Source: Shewanella loihica PV-4 (lineage in GTDB: Bacteria; Pseudomonadota; Gammaproteobacteria; Enterobacterales; Shewanellaceae). Taken from it: 64,000 nucleotides of DNA. Numbering within the stretch: position 1 is the stretch's first letter; every line of letters begins with the position of its first letter. A model generated the notes under the pieces. It did no database searches and was not told the DNA's origin. It saw only the letters and a list, made by a program, of their open reading frames with translations. The position numbers were made by a program, and so were the translations under genes. Below are positions 25,135-58,736 of the stretch, piece after piece. The DNA lies in NCBI RefSeq assembly GCF_000016065.1, contig NC_009092.1, forward strand, positions 2,790,001 through 2,854,000, given 5' to 3'.

Positions 25135-25222
25135 AGTCTTACCCCTCGAGCCTTAAAGGCTTAAACCCTGAACCTTGAGCCTTGAGCCTTGAGCCTTGAA
25201 CTTTGAACTTTGAACTTTGAAC
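25132..25222. repeat. 7-base tandem repeats after yfcH
   Basis: After the TAA the sequence becomes imperfect CCTTAAA/CTTAAAC units, then several CCTTGAG units, then CTTTGAA units, ending at about 25222. Confidence 0.75.
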
Positions 25223-50079: not shown

Positions 50080-52869
50080 TTGCAAACATCTATGCCGATC
50101 ACTAAAAGCCCCAACGATCATCGCCAGTATCAGTATCTGCAGCTGGACAATGGGCTACGTGTATTGCTAGTGGAAGATCTCCAGGCGCAACAGGCTGCCG
50201 CATCGATGGCGGTCAACGTCGGCCATTTTGACGATCCCGCTTCGCGTCCTGGCATGGCGCATTTTCTCGAACATATGCTGTTTCTGGGCACGGAAAAATA
50301 CCCCAAGTCTGGCGAGTACCATGCCTTCATCAATCAACACGGCGGCAGCAACAACGCCTGGACAGGCACGGAGCAGACCAACTTCTTCTTCTCCATCGAC
50401 GCCGAGGTGTTCGAGGAGTCGTTGGATCGCTTTAGCCAGTTTTTTATCGCGCCCTGCTTCGATCTTGAGCTGGTCGATAGAGAGCGCCACGCCATCGAGT
50501 CCGAATTTAGCCTTAAGCTCAAAGATGATATCCGCCGCACCTATCAGGTACAGAAGGAAACGGTTAATCCGGCTCATCCCTTTTCAAAGTTTTCGGTTGG
50601 CAATCTCAAGACCTTAGACGGCGATGAGAAAACACTGAGGCAAGAGCTGCTGGATTTCTATCAGACCCATTACAGCGCCAACCTTATGACCCTGTGTCTG
50701 GTAGCACCCTTACCACTAGATGAACTCTTGGCATTGGCCGAGAGCTATTTTGTGCCGATTGAAAACCGCAAGCTGGCAAAGCAATACCCAAATGTGGCCA
50801 TCTATGAAGCGGCTCAGCTTGGCCAACAGATCAACATAGTACCGCTGAAAGAGCAGCGCCGCGTGGCGATCACCTTTCCTCTACCCGCCATCGACCGCTT
50901 CTACAAGCGCAAGCCGCTGACCTTTATCAGTCATCTATTGGGCTATGAGGGCAAGGGCAGCCTGCTGAGTCACCTAAAGGATCAGGGACTGGCCATCAAT
51001 CTCTCGGCCGGTGGCGGGGTCAACGGCTATAACTTTAAAGACTATAACATCAGTATTCAGCTGACCGAGAAAGGCCTGCTACAGCTCGATGATGTGATTC
51101 AGGCGAGCTTCGAATACCTGAAACTCATTAAGACCCAGGGCATGCAGGCCTGGCGCTATCAAGAGCGAGCCAACCTGCTCAAGCTTGCCTTCAAATATCA
51201 GGAACAGATAAAACCACTGGATCTGGCCAGTCATCTCAGCATCAACATGCACCATTACGAGGTATCTGATCTCATCTATGGTGACTATCGCATGGATGGT
51301 TTGGATGTAGCTCAGGTCACCGAATTGCTGGACCTGATGAGCCCGGATAATTTGCGTATTCAGCTGATCTCACCTGATTTAGACACAGAGAAACAGGCCT
51401 CCTGGTATCACTCACCCTATCAGATGAAGCCCATAGATGCACAGCGACTCAAGCATTGGCGCGAGCCTGAGATTCGAGAGGCACTTAAACTGCCGGAGCC
51501 TAACCCCTTTATTATCGAAGACTCGATCGCCAGAGACGTTAAGAGTGACCATCCGGTGCCTGTCGTCGTCTGTCAGGAAACCGGCTATCGTATTTGGCAC
51601 AAGAAAGATGACGAATTTAACGTGCCTAAGGGGCATATGTACTTGTCCCTGGATTCACACCAGGCCGCCGCAACCCCAAAACACGCGGCGCTGACCCGCC
51701 TCTACGTGGAGATGTTGCTCGATTATCTGACCGAGTTTACGTATCCGGCCGAAGTCGCAGGGCTCAGCTACAACATCTACCCTCACCAGGGGGGGATCAC
51801 TCTGCATCTGACCGGATTAACCGGTAAACAAGAGGCTCTGCTGTCACTGCTGATAAACAAAGCCAGAGAACGTAACTTTACCCAGGACAGGTTTAAGCAG
51901 ATAAAGAAACAGATCCTACGCAACTGGTTTAACCAGAGCCGCGCAAAGCCCATCTCTCAGCTATTTACCAGCCTGACGGTGACGCTGCAGAAACGCAGTT
52001 TCGAGCCGCAACGTATGGCTGAGGAGCTAGAAGACATTACCCTGGACGACCTTCACAACCATGTTCGGGCCTTCTATGAGAAGATCCATCTCGAGGGTCT
52101 TGTCTATGGCGACTGGCTGACCGAAGAGGCTCAGGCCTTGGGTAAGCGACTCGACCATATTCTCTCTCTAGTATCTTCACCCAGCGGTGAGTCCGAACGA
52201 GAGCTGATAAAACTTGAAAATGTCGGCACCCTGATGCGTGAGGTCAGCGTTAATCATCAGGACAGTAGCATCATAGTCTACTATCAGTCGGCCCAGGCAA
52301 CACCGCTGAAGATGGCGCTGTTTAGCCTGTTAAATCACACTATGTCTTCGACTTTCTTCCACGAGTTGAGAACCAAGCGTCAGTTAGGCTACATGGTGGG
52401 CACAGGTTATCTGCCACTCAATCGTTACCCAGGGATGATCTTCTATGTGCAGTCTCCCACCGCAGGTCCTTTAAAACTGCTGGAGGCCATTGACGAGTTT
52501 ATTGCCGACTTTAACTACGCTGTCATGCAGATCACCAATGATCAATGGGAACTCACCAAGCAAGGACTCATCAACCAGATCATGGAACACGACCCCAACC
52601 TTAAGACCCGGGGACAGAGATATTGGTCGAGCATTGGAAACAAAGACTACGACTTTAATCAGCGAGAACTGGTCGCCGAGCAAATTGGTGAGCTCACCCG
52701 TTCGGATCTGATTAAGTTTATGATGCAGAAAATGCGTACCAAACACGGCGACCGCCTGATCCTCTTCACCACAGGGGAGCAACACAGAAATCAGGAACAG
52801 CTAACCTCAGACAATATGATCACAGATCTGAGAAGCTTTAAACAGCGAGCTGCTAAGTTTAGCTATTAG
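50080..52869 (+). CDS. M16 family zinc metallopeptidase (pitrilysin/insulinase type)
   Basis: A 929-residue peptidase of the pitrilysin family. The inverted zinc site HFLEH is at residues 61-65 and the third ligand glutamate lies in RERHAIESEF about 75 residues later; the WTGTEQTNFFFSI substrate-binding strand is intact. The C-terminal half is the usual inactive domain (HELRTKRQLGYMVGTGYLP). No signal peptide is apparent, so it may be cytoplasmic, unlike E. coli pitrilysin. The start is TTG, supported by GGATGGAG seven bases upstream. Confidence 0.93.
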   Translation: MQTSMPITKSPNDHRQYQYLQLDNGLRVLLVEDLQAQQAAASMAVNVGHFDDPASRPGMAHFLEHMLFLGTEKYPKSGEYHAFINQHGGSNNAWTGTEQTNFFFSIDAEVFEESLDRFSQFFIAPCFDLELVDRERHAIESEFSLKLKDDIRRTYQVQKETVNPAHPFSKFSVGNLKTLDGDEKTLRQELLDFYQTHYSANLMTLCLVAPLPLDELLALAESYFVPIENRKLAKQYPNVAIYEAAQLGQQINIVPLKEQRRVAITFPLPAIDRFYKRKPLTFISHLLGYEGKGSLLSHLKDQGLAINLSAGGGVNGYNFKDYNISIQLTEKGLLQLDDVIQASFEYLKLIKTQGMQAWRYQERANLLKLAFKYQEQIKPLDLASHLSINMHHYEVSDLIYGDYRMDGLDVAQVTELLDLMSPDNLRIQLISPDLDTEKQASWYHSPYQMKPIDAQRLKHWREPEIREALKLPEPNPFIIEDSIARDVKSDHPVPVVVCQETGYRIWHKKDDEFNVPKGHMYLSLDSHQAAATPKHAALTRLYVEMLLDYLTEFTYPAEVAGLSYNIYPHQGGITLHLTGLTGKQEALLSLLINKARERNFTQDRFKQIKKQILRNWFNQSRAKPISQLFTSLTVTLQKRSFEPQRMAEELEDITLDDLHNHVRAFYEKIHLEGLVYGDWLTEEAQALGKRLDHILSLVSSPSGESERELIKLENVGTLMREVSVNHQDSSIIVYYQSAQATPLKMALFSLLNHTMSSTFFHELRTKRQLGYMVGTGYLPLNRYPGMIFYVQSPTAGPLKLLEAIDEFIADFNYAVMQITNDQWELTKQGLINQIMEHDPNLKTRGQRYWSSIGNKDYDFNQRELVAEQIGELTRSDLIKFMMQKMRTKHGDRLILFTTGEQHRNQEQLTSDNMITDLRSFKQRAAKFSY

Positions 52870-53073: not shown

Positions 53074-53465
53074 CTTAAATCCTTTGGTTAGTTCTTGTGT
53101 TTTAAACCCCCTATCTGATCCACTACGAGACTACGGGAAGAATCGTTAACAGATCGAACCTATTTTTACGTCACAGCGCCGACCCAACATTACCCCAACG
53201 CCAGGACACTGATTGTTAGCGTCTTTTTTGCTCCAATTGCCAAAACACTCGATATAGTACGAACGCCTGATTGGCACGCACACAACAGACAAAGCCTAAT
53301 CACTCAGAAGATTTAGCAGTACAAAGCCCTAAAAGACAATGAAAATGAAAGTAATTTGCAAACAAGAAAATTCAGTGTTCTTTTGACAAATCCCCCTATT
53401 TCTGAATAAAGTAGGTTAAATAACTGTTGCCTATGCATTATTGGCTAATAATCAAACTAATAATT
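53074..53465. other. Promoter interval of the GGDEF/EAL gene
   Basis: About 390 bases with a purine-rich stretch near 53330-53365 and a TTTTGACA sequence near 53382 that would suit a -35 element, followed by TATTTCTGAATAAAGT. No operator was recognised. Confidence 0.35.
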
Positions 53466-56400
53466 ATGCCTAAAATCCTCTCAAGATTGCTACTCTCACT
53501 GCTAATGGCCCTGACTGTCTCCAGCTATGTCTCCGCTAGTGAAATACCAAGCAACGCGCCGATCTTAAAGGTCGATCACTATAACGTTCCCGAAGGCTTA
53601 TCGCAGAGTACTGTCACCTCCATCGTCGAAGATGAGCATGGTTATATATGGATTGGTACGTTAAATGGCCTTAATCGCTTTGATGGCACCCAATTTAAAC
53701 AATATTTTGCCGAAGGGGTAGATGGGTCATTACCAAGTTCATTCATTAGAAGCCTGTATATAGACGATAGTAGTAGATTACTAGTTGGTACAGACAAAGG
53801 GTTAGTCATCTACAATGATGATTTAGACAATTTTGAAAGCTTTGAAAACCAACTAATAAAAGAGCAAGCAATCTGGTCTATTAGTGAAGATAAAAAATCA
53901 ATTTTGATTGGAACAGAAAGTAACTTAATTGAAATAAACAAATCAGAAAACAAAGTTCAACTGCTAACAAATTATGATTTTGGCGGTATAAAAAAGACTA
54001 TTTCACTCAACGACAAAATATACCTTAGAAATTATGATGGTGAAATCTATGAGTACACCAAAGGAAGGGTTAACTTAGTCACTAAAAATTCAATAGGGTT
54101 ACTTTTATTTAAAAACAGTATTTTCACCCTACAAAAATACAACCTCGTCAATATATTAACAAAAGAAAAAGTACTATTCCCAAGCGAAATCACGAGCATT
54201 TCAGAAAACAACTCAACTCCGGTAATCTTAACAGATAATCTAATTACGACTATTGATAACAACCTAAAAGTAGAGGTAATAGGAACATTAAAAACTGACT
54301 CAGCGACAACTTACCCACCGCTAGTTTATTCAAGTAATAAAGGGATCTACATTGCAACAATAAACAACGGGATAACGATCATAAAACATGATAGAAACCT
54401 AATAAAGAACTACATATCAAACAAAAATGTATGGTCAATTGACAGCTATAATAAAGAGAAATTGATTGTCGCTTCAGACTCACCTTTAATAGAAGTATTT
54501 GATAAGAACTTAACATTAATTAATAGTTATGACTCGAAAATTGCAGGTCCAAAGTCTGCGATAATAAAGAACAATAAGATATACATTGCTTCCACCGAAG
54601 GGCTACAATCAATAGACATCTCAAGCAGAGAGCATAAAGTTCTGAGCAACAATAGATTTTTGATTGTTAGAAGTGATAAGGATAAGAATAGAATTATCAC
54701 TGGCTCATTTGATGGTAAAGTATTTTTTTATAGCCTAGATGACGAAATTACAACGCCAGTCACTATTGATAGTGGCAATCCGATATATGATATAAAAATA
54801 AAAAAAGACACTACTTGGGTGGCAACTCAGAGCGGTTTATTTTCATTGAATTCTGGCGTGGTCTCTAAAGTCGTTGCCGCCGACCTAGTTAGTAGCATTT
54901 TTATAGATGAGAACACAGTATACTTTACAACTCGAAATTCACTTTCAAAATATGACACTTTAACAAATCTCGTAACAGAAATATTTAAAAGTAGCAAGCC
55001 TATTTATGCCATTGAAAAATCAGGTGACAACATAATAGCTTCTTCAAATGCTGAAATCTTTTTGATCACAAACGATCACGATATGTACTCATTCCCTTCA
55101 TCTTATGGTAGCCAAGATGAATATAACTCTCAGGCCATCTCCAGCTTAGACGAAACAATTTACATAGGTGGTATAAATGGATTAAGCGTTTTAAATACAA
55201 GAAAAATTTCTAACTTCTTAACAGAAAGAATACCTCCAAAAGTAATTGTGGACACCTTGTTAGTTTTTAATGTACCAGAAAAAGTAAACGGTGGCATATT
55301 AAAGAAACAACTACCTAAGACCCAGAGGATAAGTCTAAAGTATTCTGATTATCCATTTACACTGAAATTTAGTACCCCAGGAAACATAGATAAAACATTA
55401 GAATATGCCTATCAGTTGGAGGGACTTTCAGATACATGGATAAACTCTAAAGGCATTAACTCCGCGACTTACACTAATTTATCACCAGGTGAATACTATT
55501 TTAAGGTACACACCATAGACCCCTTAACAAAAAAATTAGGTATTACACAAAGTCTTTCAATTGAAATCACCCCTCCTTGGTGGTTATCGATTCAAGCTAA
55601 AGTCGTCTACCTGCTTATTACCCTCTTGATCACGGGCGTCATAGTCAAGGCAGCGCTTAGAAGAAGAGAGGTACAGCGTCAGATCGCTAAGTCTGAAGAA
55701 CGGTTGAAACTCTCCCTGTGGGGGAGTGGTGATGAGATGTGGGACTGGGATATTGAAACAGGTCAAATCTACCGCTCTAACATCTGGGGGTCCCTCGAGT
55801 TTCCACGGGATGGTCAGCGCTCCGGTGAGGAAGGTGAAGAGAGTAACATTCACCCTATGGATCAAGAACGTGTTAACACGGCGCTGAATAAACACTTCTA
55901 CGGTGAAACCGATCACTTCGAGGCAGCCTATCGCGTTAAGGGCAAAGATGACCAGTGGATCTGGATCTTGGACAGGGCAAAGATCGTTGAACGCGATGAA
56001 GAAGATAAAGCCCTGCGTATGACAGGTACAATCAAAAACATCAGCAACTTTAAGCAAGCCGAGGAGCAGCTAAGACTGTTCGAACGCGCCATCGAGAACA
56101 TCTCAGAAGGCATGTTCATCCTGGACAACAAATTTAAGTTTGTTGAAGTCAACGAAGCCTGCTGCGATCTGTGTGAGAAGAGTCGTAATGACTTTATTGG
56201 CGAGCTGTTTAAGTTTGACCTTTATCCCGAGAGCTACTCAGAGCAGATTCGCCATATTCTGCAGCAACAAGGTAGCTGGAGTAACGAAGTTGAGTCCGCC
56301 AAGGGCGACGGCAGCAGCTTCCTGATGGAGCTAACCGTCGATGCGATTTACGATGAACAAGGTGTCCTCTCCCACTATGTAGGGGTGTTCTCTGATATCT

Positions 56401-57746
56401 CCCGTCGTAAGCAACAGGAAGAAGAGTTACGCAAACTAACCAACAACGATCTACTCACCAGCCTGCCAAACCGCTCTAGCCTCATGGTCACCCTAGGTAA
56501 CTTGGTGAAGAAAGATACCCATCACACCCTGATGGTTTTGGACTTAGATAACTTTAAGAAGATCAATGACTCACTTGGGCATCAGGTGGGTGATGAGCTA
56601 TTAATCAAAGTAGCGAGACGCATCGAATCCACGGTGCCTTACCATACGAGTATCTATCGTCTGGGCGGCGATGAGTTCGCCATACTGGTCGATAACAATC
56701 CAGATATTGGCTCCAGTGCCGTCATCGCCAATCATGTAGTCGATGCCTTCTCAAGCCCATTCGAGCTCACCAAAGACAGAGTCGTTGTCGGGGTGAGTAT
56801 AGGCATAGTGCTCTACCCAGAAGACGATCAGAATGAACAGGCGCTTCTGCGTAAGGCAGACATTGCCATGTATCACGCAAAATCTGCCGGTGGCAATCGT
56901 TATCAATTCTATTCGGAATCACTCAATCGCAATGCCATTCGCCAGCTGGAAGTGGAGAACCTTATCCGCGAAGGTTTAAGGGACGATCTCTTCGAAGTCT
57001 ACTATCAACCTAAAATTGACCTCAGAACCAGTAAGATGGCCGGTATGGAGGCCCTGGTAAGATTAAATCATCCTGAACACGGTCTCATTCCGCCGGGCGA
57101 CTTTATCCCACTGGCCGAAGAGAATGGACTCATCGTCGAAATTGGCGAGGTCGTTCTACGTAAAGCCTGCTTCGCGGCACAAAATTGGCGTCGTCAAAAT
57201 TTGTTCAACGGTCGGGTCGCTGTCAATTTATCATCACAACAATTCGCTCTTCCGGACCTACAACAACGGATAGAGTCAATTTTACGTCTAACTCAACTGC
57301 CCGCAGCCAACCTTGAGCTTGAAATTACCGAAGGCACCGTCATAAAACAGCCAGAAAAAGCGATAAAGGTGATGATGCAACTCTCTAAGATGGGCGTCAG
57401 CCTTGCGTTAGACGACTTTGGCACCGGATATTCGTCACTGTCATATTTAAAGCGCTTCCCAATTGACACCCTAAAAATCGATAAGGCTTTTGTTGACGAC
57501 ATAGATAAATCTGACAGAGATCTAAAGATGGTCGACTCTATTATCACTATTGCCCATAACATGGGCCTATCTGTGGTCGGTGAAGGCGTCGAGGAAGCCT
57601 CTCAGCTTAGCATCTTGAAAGCATTGAAATGCGAAGAAATACAAGGATTTATTTACAGCAAGGCAGTAAATGAAACCAGCTTCACCGAGCTACTAAAACA
57701 GGAGAGTTTTACCTACACACCTGTCTCACAACACAAGAAAGCCTAG
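53466..57746 (+). CDS. Periplasmic-propeller sensor with PAS, GGDEF and EAL domains
   Basis: A ~1426-residue inner-membrane c-di-GMP enzyme. After a signal peptide (MPKILSRLLLSLLMALTVSS) comes a beta-propeller of Reg_prop repeats (HGYIWIGTLNGLNRFDG is the clearest), a Y_Y_Y domain (YAYQLEGLSDTWI), one transmembrane helix (~residues 710-730), two PAS regions, an intact GGDEF site (YRLGGDEFAIL) and an intact EAL site (MEALVRLNH, with LDDFGTGYSSLSYLK). Both cyclase and phosphodiesterase activity are possible. The frame opens upstream at 53427 (TTG). The sensor half is much more AT-rich than the cytoplasmic half. A repeat-protein gene follows 150 bases later. Confidence 0.9.
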   Translation: MPKILSRLLLSLLMALTVSSYVSASEIPSNAPILKVDHYNVPEGLSQSTVTSIVEDEHGYIWIGTLNGLNRFDGTQFKQYFAEGVDGSLPSSFIRSLYIDDSSRLLVGTDKGLVIYNDDLDNFESFENQLIKEQAIWSISEDKKSILIGTESNLIEINKSENKVQLLTNYDFGGIKKTISLNDKIYLRNYDGEIYEYTKGRVNLVTKNSIGLLLFKNSIFTLQKYNLVNILTKEKVLFPSEITSISENNSTPVILTDNLITTIDNNLKVEVIGTLKTDSATTYPPLVYSSNKGIYIATINNGITIIKHDRNLIKNYISNKNVWSIDSYNKEKLIVASDSPLIEVFDKNLTLINSYDSKIAGPKSAIIKNNKIYIASTEGLQSIDISSREHKVLSNNRFLIVRSDKDKNRIITGSFDGKVFFYSLDDEITTPVTIDSGNPIYDIKIKKDTTWVATQSGLFSLNSGVVSKVVAADLVSSIFIDENTVYFTTRNSLSKYDTLTNLVTEIFKSSKPIYAIEKSGDNIIASSNAEIFLITNDHDMYSFPSSYGSQDEYNSQAISSLDETIYIGGINGLSVLNTRKISNFLTERIPPKVIVDTLLVFNVPEKVNGGILKKQLPKTQRISLKYSDYPFTLKFSTPGNIDKTLEYAYQLEGLSDTWINSKGINSATYTNLSPGEYYFKVHTIDPLTKKLGITQSLSIEITPPWWLSIQAKVVYLLITLLITGVIVKAALRRREVQRQIAKSEERLKLSLWGSGDEMWDWDIETGQIYRSNIWGSLEFPRDGQRSGEEGEESNIHPMDQERVNTALNKHFYGETDHFEAAYRVKGKDDQWIWILDRAKIVERDEEDKALRMTGTIKNISNFKQAEEQLRLFERAIENISEGMFILDNKFKFVEVNEACCDLCEKSRNDFIGELFKFDLYPESYSEQIRHILQQQGSWSNEVESAKGDGSSFLMELTVDAIYDEQGVLSHYVGVFSDISRRKQQEEELRKLTNNDLLTSLPNRSSLMVTLGNLVKKDTHHTLMVLDLDNFKKINDSLGHQVGDELLIKVARRIESTVPYHTSIYRLGGDEFAILVDNNPDIGSSAVIANHVVDAFSSPFELTKDRVVVGVSIGIVLYPEDDQNEQALLRKADIAMYHAKSAGGNRYQFYSESLNRNAIRQLEVENLIREGLRDDLFEVYYQPKIDLRTSKMAGMEALVRLNHPEHGLIPPGDFIPLAEENGLIVEIGEVVLRKACFAAQNWRRQNLFNGRVAVNLSSQQFALPDLQQRIESILRLTQLPAANLELEITEGTVIKQPEKAIKVMMQLSKMGVSLALDDFGTGYSSLSYLKRFPIDTLKIDKAFVDDIDKSDRDLKMVDSIITIAHNMGLSVVGEGVEEASQLSILKALKCEEIQGFIYSKAVNETSFTELLKQESFTYTPVSQHKKA

Positions 57747-57814
57747 TCATAGAATGGGAAATCACACACTTAAAGAGGAATATGTTTAACTAAAATTAAG
57801 CTAAAAATAAAAAT

Positions 57815-57830
57815 TGGCATAACACCTGCA
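57815..57830 (+). promoter_or_regulatory. Possible sigma-54 promoter before the repeat-protein gene
   Basis: TGGCATAACACCTGCA matches nine of twelve defined bases of TGGCACG-N4-TTGCW and has GG and GC at exactly the required 10-base spacing. It would start RNA near 57841, about 55 bases before the ATG. Confidence 0.45.
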
Positions 57831-57847
57831 ATACATCTCTCAGACGT

Positions 57848-57860
57848 CAACAAATTGTTG
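57848..57860. promoter_or_regulatory. Small palindrome upstream of the repeat-protein gene
   Basis: CAACAA-A-TTGTTG is a perfect 6-base inverted repeat around one base, next to GGCACTATAAC, where a sigma-70 -10 (TATAAC) could also lie. Operator role is unproven. Confidence 0.3.
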
Positions 57861-57896
57861 GCACTATAACTTCAATAACCCTGAGAGATAAAGACA

Positions 57897-58532
57897 ATGA
57901 TTAACGGACTAGTTACTGCCATCGCTTTAGCAACAAGCTTAACAACTGCAAACATTAATACAGACGAAGTGTCGATTGTGTCAGATATTGCGGTGCAAAA
58001 GACCGAGCAATTAGCAGTAACTGGCTACCCACATGTTAAGTTTAAACCTGTAGAAGTCGCTGGCTATCCACACGTTAAGTTTAAGCCTTTAGAAGTCGCT
58101 GGCTACCCACACGTTAAGTTCAAGCCTGTAGAAGTCGCTGGCTACCCACACGTTAAGTTCAAGCCTGTAGAAGTCGCTGGCTACCCACACGTGAAGTTCA
58201 AGCCTCTAGAAGTCGCTGGCTACCCACACGTTAAGTTCAAGCCTCTAGAAGTCGCTGGCTACCCACACGTTAAGTTCAAGCCTCTAGAAGTTGCCGGCTA
58301 CCCACACGTTAAATTCAAGCCTGTAGAAGTTGCTGGCTACCCACACGTTAAGTTCAAGCCAGTGGAAGTCGCTGGCTACCCACACGTTAAGTTCAAGCCT
58401 GTCGAAGTTGCCGGCTACCCACACGTTAAATTCAAGCCTGTAGAAGTCGCTGGCTACCCACACGTTAAATTCAAGCCTGTAGAAGTCGCTGGCTACCCAC
58501 ACGTCAAATTCATCAACTCAGCCGTTGCTTAA
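57897..58532 (+). CDS. Tandem-repeat protein with 13 GYPHVKF motifs
   Basis: A 211-residue protein. Residues 1-~22 are hydrophobic (MINGLVTAIALATSLTTAN) and resemble a signal peptide, though without a basic n-region. Residues ~23-42 are a short acidic spacer. Residues 43-211 are exactly 13 units of 13 residues, GYPHVKFKPVEVA, with V/L alternation at position 10 and a final unit ending INSAVA. There is no cysteine. The 39-base DNA units are nearly identical with mostly synonymous differences. The ATG follows CTGAGAGATAAAGACA. Function unknown; a secreted fibre, a metal-binding or multi-core peptide precursor are alternatives. It is followed by a mini-gene and a terminator. Confidence 0.85.
   Translation: MINGLVTAIALATSLTTANINTDEVSIVSDIAVQKTEQLAVTGYPHVKFKPVEVAGYPHVKFKPLEVAGYPHVKFKPVEVAGYPHVKFKPVEVAGYPHVKFKPLEVAGYPHVKFKPLEVAGYPHVKFKPLEVAGYPHVKFKPVEVAGYPHVKFKPVEVAGYPHVKFKPVEVAGYPHVKFKPVEVAGYPHVKFKPVEVAGYPHVKFINSAVA
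58024..58530. repeat. Thirteen in-frame 39-base tandem repeats
   Basis: The unit is GGCTACCCACACGTTAAGTT plus CAAGCCTGTAGAAGTCGCT (39 bases), repeated 13 times without spacers. Because 39 is a multiple of three, copy-number change would keep the frame. Confidence 0.95.
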
Positions 58533-58704: not shown

Positions 58705-58736
58705 AAAAAAGGAGCTCTAACAGGCTCCTTTTTTTA
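58705..58736 (+). terminator. Terminator of the repeat-protein operon
   Basis: AAAAAAGGAGC-TCTAACA-GGCTCCTTTTTTT, a short GC stem flanked by A6 and T7. Confidence 0.9.

Follow-up and report, generated by a model that had tools for sequence, protein, structure and literature searches.

A tandem peptide array beside a hypervariable propeller-GGDEF-EAL sensor in Shewanella: a candidate multi-copy ligand precursor

Polymorphic peptide signalling is mainly a Gram-positive theme, represented by the peptide-pheromone systems agr and ComQXPA of Gram-positive bacteria, and the multi-copy pheromone precursor of yeasts is alpha-factor. Curli and Fap are functional amyloids. The propeller sensors with the solved structures 4a2l, 3v9f and 3ott presumably come from Bacteroides-type hosts and respond to glycan ligands, and we know of no ligand for most c-di-GMP sensors. 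For PdeB, a GGDEF-EAL sensor of Shewanella with a PAS domain, the published account describes the periplasmic domain as less conserved, and its authors suggest a small molecule or peptide as the signal (PMC9061725).

The locus described here lies in a window of 64,000 nucleotides, the whole stretch of DNA analysed, from Shewanella loihica PV-4 (NC_009092.1, positions 2,790,001 to 2,854,000), and its features are collected in Table 1. Comparison of the locus across the genus makes it probable that the repeat array is a Sec-exported multi-copy peptide ligand of the adjacent propeller-GGDEF-EAL receptor, with matched alleles of the two exchanged between species and the c-di-GMP half of the receptor conserved. 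The hypervariable receptor, the sigma54-type promoter, the structured leader and the downstream 39-residue peptide lie outside the repeat frame treated in the sequence-only reading of this stretch.

Table 1. Features of the repeat-array locus in the window
Feature	Coordinates	Strand	Basis or remark
M16 insulinase-type peptidase, PqqF-like C-terminal domain (Pfam)	50080-52869		upstream of sensor
Sensor gene, proposed receptor	53466..57746	+	signal peptide, propeller, Y_Y_Y, one membrane helix, two PAS, GGDEF, EAL
Hypervariable periplasmic propeller of sensor, residues 38-633	53538..55325	+	low identity across sensors
Sigma54-type (-24/-12) promoter TTGGCATAACACCTGCA	57814..57830	+	site conserved across loci
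Structured 5' leader	57838..57896	+	UCUCAG pairs with CUGAGA, which holds the ribosome-binding site; MFE -10.6 kcal/mol, z -1.76
Putative exported multi-copy peptide precursor, 211 aa	57897..58532	+	signal-peptide-like N-terminus, variable leader to 58022, then units
Twelve full 13-residue units GYPHVKFKP[V/L]EVA	58023..58490	+	unit reading; position statistics across species
Thirteenth unit GYPHVKFINSAVA, protein end Ala	58491..58529	+	core kept, spacer not kept
WW peptide gene, 39 aa	58551..58670	+	homologues across genus; not variable with unit type
Possible intrinsic terminator, GGAGC...GCTCC then T tract	58711..58735	+	read from sequence; not listed by simple scanner

The repeat array and its neighbourhood

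The sequence-only reading had described an exported protein with a leader of about 42 residues and exactly 13 units of 13 residues. The frame and its length were found as claimed, and 42 residues precede the first unit. Tandem Repeats Finder gives the array (58021-58512, period 39, 12.6 copies) a score of 823; among the program's 16 rows for the window the runner-up scores 97. The same program lists nine copies of the 7-mer CTTGAAC at 25160-25222, which are unrelated to the array. The unit count holds for twelve full units, in which position 10 is V in eight and L in four, but not for the thirteenth, which has the core and another spacer. The DNA copies had been called equally uniform; however, the twelve full units comprise 10 DNA versions against two protein versions, and of the 11 nucleotide positions that vary among them 10 are the third of a codon. 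It is thus at the protein level that the copies are uniform, and the constraint on the array of the window acts on the protein. Recent expansion or homogenisation, offered earlier as a source of this uniformity, was rejected as its sole cause since silent sites have diverged among the copies. The protein is rich in Gly and Pro and, in agreement with the earlier statement that it holds no known domain, matches Pfam and NCBIfam models only below their cut-offs; a protein-database search with the array returned a single fragment.

The repeat protein was matched in 34 of 60 genomes (its own and relatives), all of them in Shewanella, of which 36 genomes were searched, so that homologues carrying the repeat occur across the genus. 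Arrays were measurable at 96 of the 117 loci read by script, and all 96 lie directly upstream of the gene for a small peptide ending in two tryptophans (the WW peptide). The 21 loci left out of the array statistics contain ambiguous bases (10 loci) or have no open reading frame or fewer than four cores in the chosen frame, and several of them are frame-shifted or lie at contig ends. Two of the 119 genus loci were missed by the peptide pattern of the script and were read by eye. One of these (L251, genome G017) has a divergent array with units AGLPIVRHEPIQV, a His at position 7 where others are hydrophobic and a unit-free C-terminal tail. In L253 (G689) and L199 (G707) the reading frame of the array shifts partway. 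The contigs of draft genomes (e.g. L158, L180, L231 and L237) often stop inside the array, and short-read assemblies therefore under-report it.

A Shewanella array consists of a core followed by a spacer ending in Ala, and the protein itself ends in Ala in 94 of the 96 measured arrays. The unit is 13 residues long in 90 of these and 9, 14 or 15 in the rest. Core numbers, compared among Shewanella in 89 complete-looking arrays, run from 4 to 34 with a median of 12, arrays of fewer than four cores falling outside the measurement; a single unit is found at L236. Unit lengths are mixed in L258 (11/13) and L113 (13/19). Two unit types alternate in L213, L215 and L258 (VPGVKVLDAQ/IPGVRVLESQ; 11- and 13-residue units), which suggests higher-order duplication or two ligands in one precursor.

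Within an array the mean identity is 0.959 for protein and 0.911 for DNA, while 13-residue consensus units are 0.477 identical between species and the 96 arrays hold 78 distinct consensus units. Alleles other than GYPHVKFKPVEVA are, for example, GFPHVKVKPVEVA and GHPYVKFKPFEVA. The functional constraint proposed for the units is borne out by the ratio pN/pS within arrays, which falls from 0.10 in the spacer to 0.02 in the core. In 13-residue units, compared over 90 species, Lys or Arg occupies position 6 in all 90 and Ala position 13 in 89; position 5 is V, I or L and position 7 hydrophobic or aromatic, the Pro at position 3 being constant by construction of the core search pattern (P-x-[VILFMN]-[KRN]-hydrophobic). 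Metal binding through the His of the unit, one of the functions first considered, was rejected: position 4 is His in only 24 of the 90 species units and otherwise N, Y, G, A, W, V or R.

The repeat protein is probably exported, judging from its N-terminus across loci. In 99 of 117 loci a start could be selected with a hydrophobic stretch between it and the first core, hydrophobicity being itself the criterion of selection; Lys or Arg occurs among the first six residues in 84 of these 99, and a permissive small-residue site at -3/-1 in 98. Export, as claimed earlier, is thus plausible, though the precursor of the window has no Lys or Arg near its start.

Scored with the general sigma54-type promoter consensus, 97 of 98 usable loci carry such a site, placed 62-110 nt upstream of the start codon; of 4247 background windows taken from these loci, 8 have one. 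The other 19 of the 117 loci were unusable, as the count needs a usable start and enough upstream DNA. The sole locus scored as lacking the site carries TTGGCATAACAATTGA. Sigma54 itself is encoded in the genome of the window. The transcribed leader forms a pairing of which similar versions occur in many of 100 folded leaders, in some clades with the stem upstream of the ribosome-binding site, and 13 loci form a group with a constant closing stem and an inner hairpin of changing sequence. Compared with Rfam, the leader comes near the gathering score of no family. Translation of the repeat gene may be regulated by this structure, to judge from its predicted folding.

Only the precursor and the WW peptide genes lie between the sensor and fadJ. 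The WW peptide has 38-39 residues with the core V.LPEGL..LEV..A..WW, belongs to no Pfam or NCBIfam family and has homologues in 119 of 129 genus genomes; its 61 loci in named genomes are all in Shewanella. It was found in 26 of 295 genomes of the order, 21 of these 26 belonging to the genus, and in a class-wide sample of 369 genomes it was found in its own genome only. The peptide is identical in the window, L158 and L159 despite three different units. Several species (e.g. those of G004, G016, G019, G032 and G708) have two tandem copies of it. Upstream of the sensor, the M16 peptidase is a conceivable candidate for processing or turnover of the peptide by its family; a signal peptide is not visible in its frame. 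In L268 and L269, too, a frame resembling this peptidase precedes the sensor, the difference there being confined to the downstream side. A scan of eight neighbours gave no AgrB- or ComQ-like family and no usual RiPP tailoring family, although a RiPP precursor is still conceivable in view of the PqqF-like domain of the upstream peptidase, and neither these eight nor the interval between sensor and fadJ contain a secretion channel gene.

Joint variation of unit and sensor propeller

The sensor frame directly upstream of the array is open from the TTG at 53427 and comprises 1439 residues, with Reg_prop, Y_Y_Y, PAS, GGDEF and EAL above the Pfam cut-offs; the signal peptide and the membrane helix were judged by eye. 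Its periplasmic half matches the solved propeller sensors 4a2l (E 1.5e-77), 3v9f and 3ott, whereas the enzymatic half resembles solved GGDEF-EAL proteins, 4rnh ('Motility regulator', E 2.3e-99) most of all. The GGDEF and EAL signature residues are intact in the translation. Full-length sensors from 93 of 115 loci were aligned (22 loci have no full sensor), of which four were dropped before distances were taken, for having fewer than three cores or by name (L070). Averaged over the remaining 89, identity amounts to 0.81 in the cytoplasmic half and to 0.32 in the propeller.

The difference between the two halves is visible in the nearest relative compared, L299. Its cytoplasmic half is 100% identical to that of the window in the compared stretch and 0.999 identical over the whole half, whereas the propellers are 41% identical and the units read GYPHVKF and GFPHVKV. 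In DNA the flanks and the cytoplasmic half are 90% identical, and 53800-55338 is left unaligned. Measured at silent sites, the two are 0.10 apart in the cytoplasmic half, 0.53 apart in the periplasmic half and 0.21 apart in the peptidase gene upstream. A single further Y_Y_Y protein, to judge from its sequence a histidine kinase, was found in the two genomes and served as a control; its identity over 1017 columns, propeller included, is 97.8%.

Across the genus, change in the unit is accompanied by change in the propeller. Among the 116 pairs of sensors with a cytoplasmic distance of at most 0.05, the 20 pairs with the same core have propeller distances of 0.003-0.366 (median 0.243), the median rising to 0.472 in the 19 pairs with one core change and to 0.621 in the 77 pairs with at least two. 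When 33 disjoint pairs were taken (cytoplasmic distance up to 0.06), the propeller median was 0.082 in the seven same-core pairs and 0.585 in the 26 different ones (P=1.4e-5). Permutation of core labels within clades, confined to the 10 clades of three or more members, reached the observed difference of 0.403 in none of 5000 rounds, the corresponding statistic for the cytoplasmic half being 0.013. The only different-core pair with a propeller distance below 0.25 at this close range is L082/L084, with near-identical propellers and with two unit types mixed in both arrays. At longer range, identical cores also occur with unrelated propellers, as in the window and L311 (0.602). A global partial Mantel correlation for the propeller gave r 0.22, or 0.378 in a second run; however, it is also positive for Y_Y_Y and PAS and, given silent distance, reaches 0.356 in the cytoplasmic half. 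Because this cytoplasmic control also correlates, the partial Mantel result is not used as main evidence and the close-range pairs are relied on.

Silent distances point the same way. In the 50 different-core pairs with a cytoplasmic silent distance below 0.5, the median is 0.659 in the propeller, near saturation, and 0.38 in the cytoplasmic half, the propeller being silently closer in two of the 50. The 13 same-core pairs within this limit have a propeller median of 0.338, and in seven of them, clearly in four, the propeller is closer than the cytoplasmic half (e.g. 0.069 against 0.224, and in L075/L081 0.108 against 0.487); in three others (L062/L071, L063/L071 and L345/L347) it is much farther, at 0.53-0.60 against 0.15-0.37. 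Same-core pairs that are most alike in the propeller, as some of these are, would be expected of recently shared alleles, and matched alleles thus appear to have been exchanged between species. Both polymorphic segments lie within about 5 kb, and linkage therefore helps their joint change.

This proximity, together with the recombination that evidently replaces alleles here, could also be read as hitch-hiking, in which two independently hypervariable segments are imported as one recombination block. The roughly 2 kb of the cytoplasmic half between the segments nevertheless stays low in silent distance, as in the comparison of the window with L299 above, and the match holds across clades, so that hitch-hiking is a very doubtful account of the data. 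A ligand and receptor changing in matched pairs is the reading followed below.

Short-precursor relatives and the proposed function

Ten of the 129 genus genomes are without the WW peptide. Four of these (G018, G758, G759 and G762) form a clade with an orthologous sensor, a sigma54-type site and an exported open reading frame of about 59 residues with one terminal core (RIPIVIF, RFPIVIF, QFPIVVF and RFPIVIF). Their sensors are 57% identical, G762 reaching 71% over the larger part; in G762 (L270) the sensor is split over two frames. The other six have no clear sensor orthologue, their best matches being GGDEF-EAL proteins 35-41% identical, in surroundings that were partly read. In a second family of the order, all five genomes searched have the sensor and the WW peptide, together with an exported frame 40-48 residues long that bears one or two motifs at its C-terminus and ends in EEGVAI, DEEVGI, IDDQVEM, IEDQVGL (present twice) or IDDRISQ, and three of the five have a canonical sigma54-type site. 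A third family has short arrays ending at the core in four of seven genomes (RIPVRF, VIIRY, IPIRF and IQIRI). In these groups, too, the periplasmic half of the receptor is more variable than the cytoplasmic half.

These relatives bear on two of the functions raised in the sequence-only reading, a secreted fibre and a precursor of many copies of one peptide. A structural polymer, whether fibre, elastomer, matrix component or adhesin, with its state of assembly monitored by the adjacent sensor, would account for a repetitive, exported protein of this composition, and c-di-GMP enzymes often adjoin matrix genes. However, the receptor is kept with precursors of 40-59 residues bearing one or two motifs, and with the single unit of L236, which makes a structural fibre unlikely; the unit, moreover, varies through all the lengths given above, mixed ones included, and so has no fixed geometry. 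A polymer is thus highly improbable, and a small exported peptide with a C-terminal motif fits a ligand precursor rather than a fibre. The arrays look like amplification of that C-terminal motif, and the second of the two functions gains support from the unit constraint and the single-motif relatives.

In the mechanism proposed for the ligand reading, sigma54-dependent transcription would yield the precursor, which would be exported by the Sec route, and the short peptide with the core xPx[VI][KR][F/V/L/Y] would be the cognate ligand. The units, either cut out, perhaps by cleavage after the unit-final Ala, or still in the chain, would bind the sensor propeller directly, and binding would change c-di-GMP turnover by the GGDEF-EAL half, in whichever direction. 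The peptide may be released from the cell, and each cell would respond to its own allele type and not to others.

Signalling could be confined to one cell, as the outer membrane may be a barrier to a 13-mer or polymer. In an alternative reading the array is a cis-acting periplasmic partner that binds and gates the propeller of its own cell, allelic diversity arising from an arms race, for instance with phage or competitors exploiting the pair. It would produce the same linkage and matched polymorphism, the signal peptide delivers the protein to the periplasm, where the propeller sits, and no outer-membrane exporter gene accompanies the array among the neighbouring frames. An internal contact gives, however, no obvious reason for many alleles or for as many as 34 copies, and the alternative is considered unlikely.

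Extended to populations, the ligand-receptor reading leads to a Gram-negative pherotype system, put forward here tentatively as a possibility that falls somewhat short of being probable: almost every Shewanella, and members of two other families of the order, would secrete an allele-specific peptide, in up to 34 copies per precursor, to which no propeller but the matching one of a c-di-GMP enzyme responds, such that decisions on biofilm or motility follow the local density of cells of the same allele, a kin-type-specific form of signalling. If the ligand-receptor reading itself is right, a genetically encoded, allele-matched peptide ligand would be in hand for a large c-di-GMP receptor of a much-studied genus, and dozens of natural ligand-receptor allele pairs would be at hand for experiments on specificity. 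It would also explain an exported protein that is near-constant within a genome and different in most species.

Comparison with described systems

The locus is apparently undescribed: titles and abstracts of the open literature in PubMed Central, a scope outside which most subscription papers fall, gave no description of it among the matches listed, and none of five presumed locus tags of the neighbourhood in MR-1 is present in PMC3409153. Within Shewanella, PdeB differs from the sensor described here in having a HAMP domain and, flanked by two membrane regions, a periplasmic domain without striking homology, and the word propeller is absent from that text (PMC9061725). The hybrid two-component sensors of Bacteroides type share the Reg_prop periplasmic propellers and Y_Y_Y; however, the solved examples (4a2l, 3v9f and 3ott) are titled sensor histidine kinase/response regulator, whereas the output here is GGDEF-EAL, the propeller is hypervariable and a peptide gene is adjacent. 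Curli and Fap resemble the array as exported repeat proteins but differ from it in that the array has no secretion channel gene beside it, no fixed repeat length and single-copy relatives. The yeast alpha-factor precursor has the same plan of a signal peptide followed by tandem identical peptides with spacers, although no dibasic cleavage site of the Kex2 type occurs in the units of the window and the receptor here is a bacterial c-di-GMP sensor.

The closest likeness is to agr and ComQXPA. There, as here, an exported peptide (in the present case an open reading frame of 40-59 residues or an array, with a presumed role as ligand) is encoded beside a membrane receptor, and the ligand and the sensing region change in step, the output region being conserved, with the exceptions given above for the present locus. 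In agr and ComQXPA the receptor is a histidine kinase, whereas the output here is PAS-GGDEF-EAL; this locus showed no AgrB- or ComQ-like gene among the eight neighbours scanned and is set apart by its Gram-negative host, Sec-type signal peptide, tandem copies and sigma54-type promoter. Because the locus has no histidine kinase, which sets it outside the pheromone cassettes, and because the precursor and the WW peptide are in no Pfam or NCBIfam family, the system is regarded as new. By analogy, the locus would represent a new kind of system, with a function we infer, that may work in the manner of the polymorphic pheromone cassettes.
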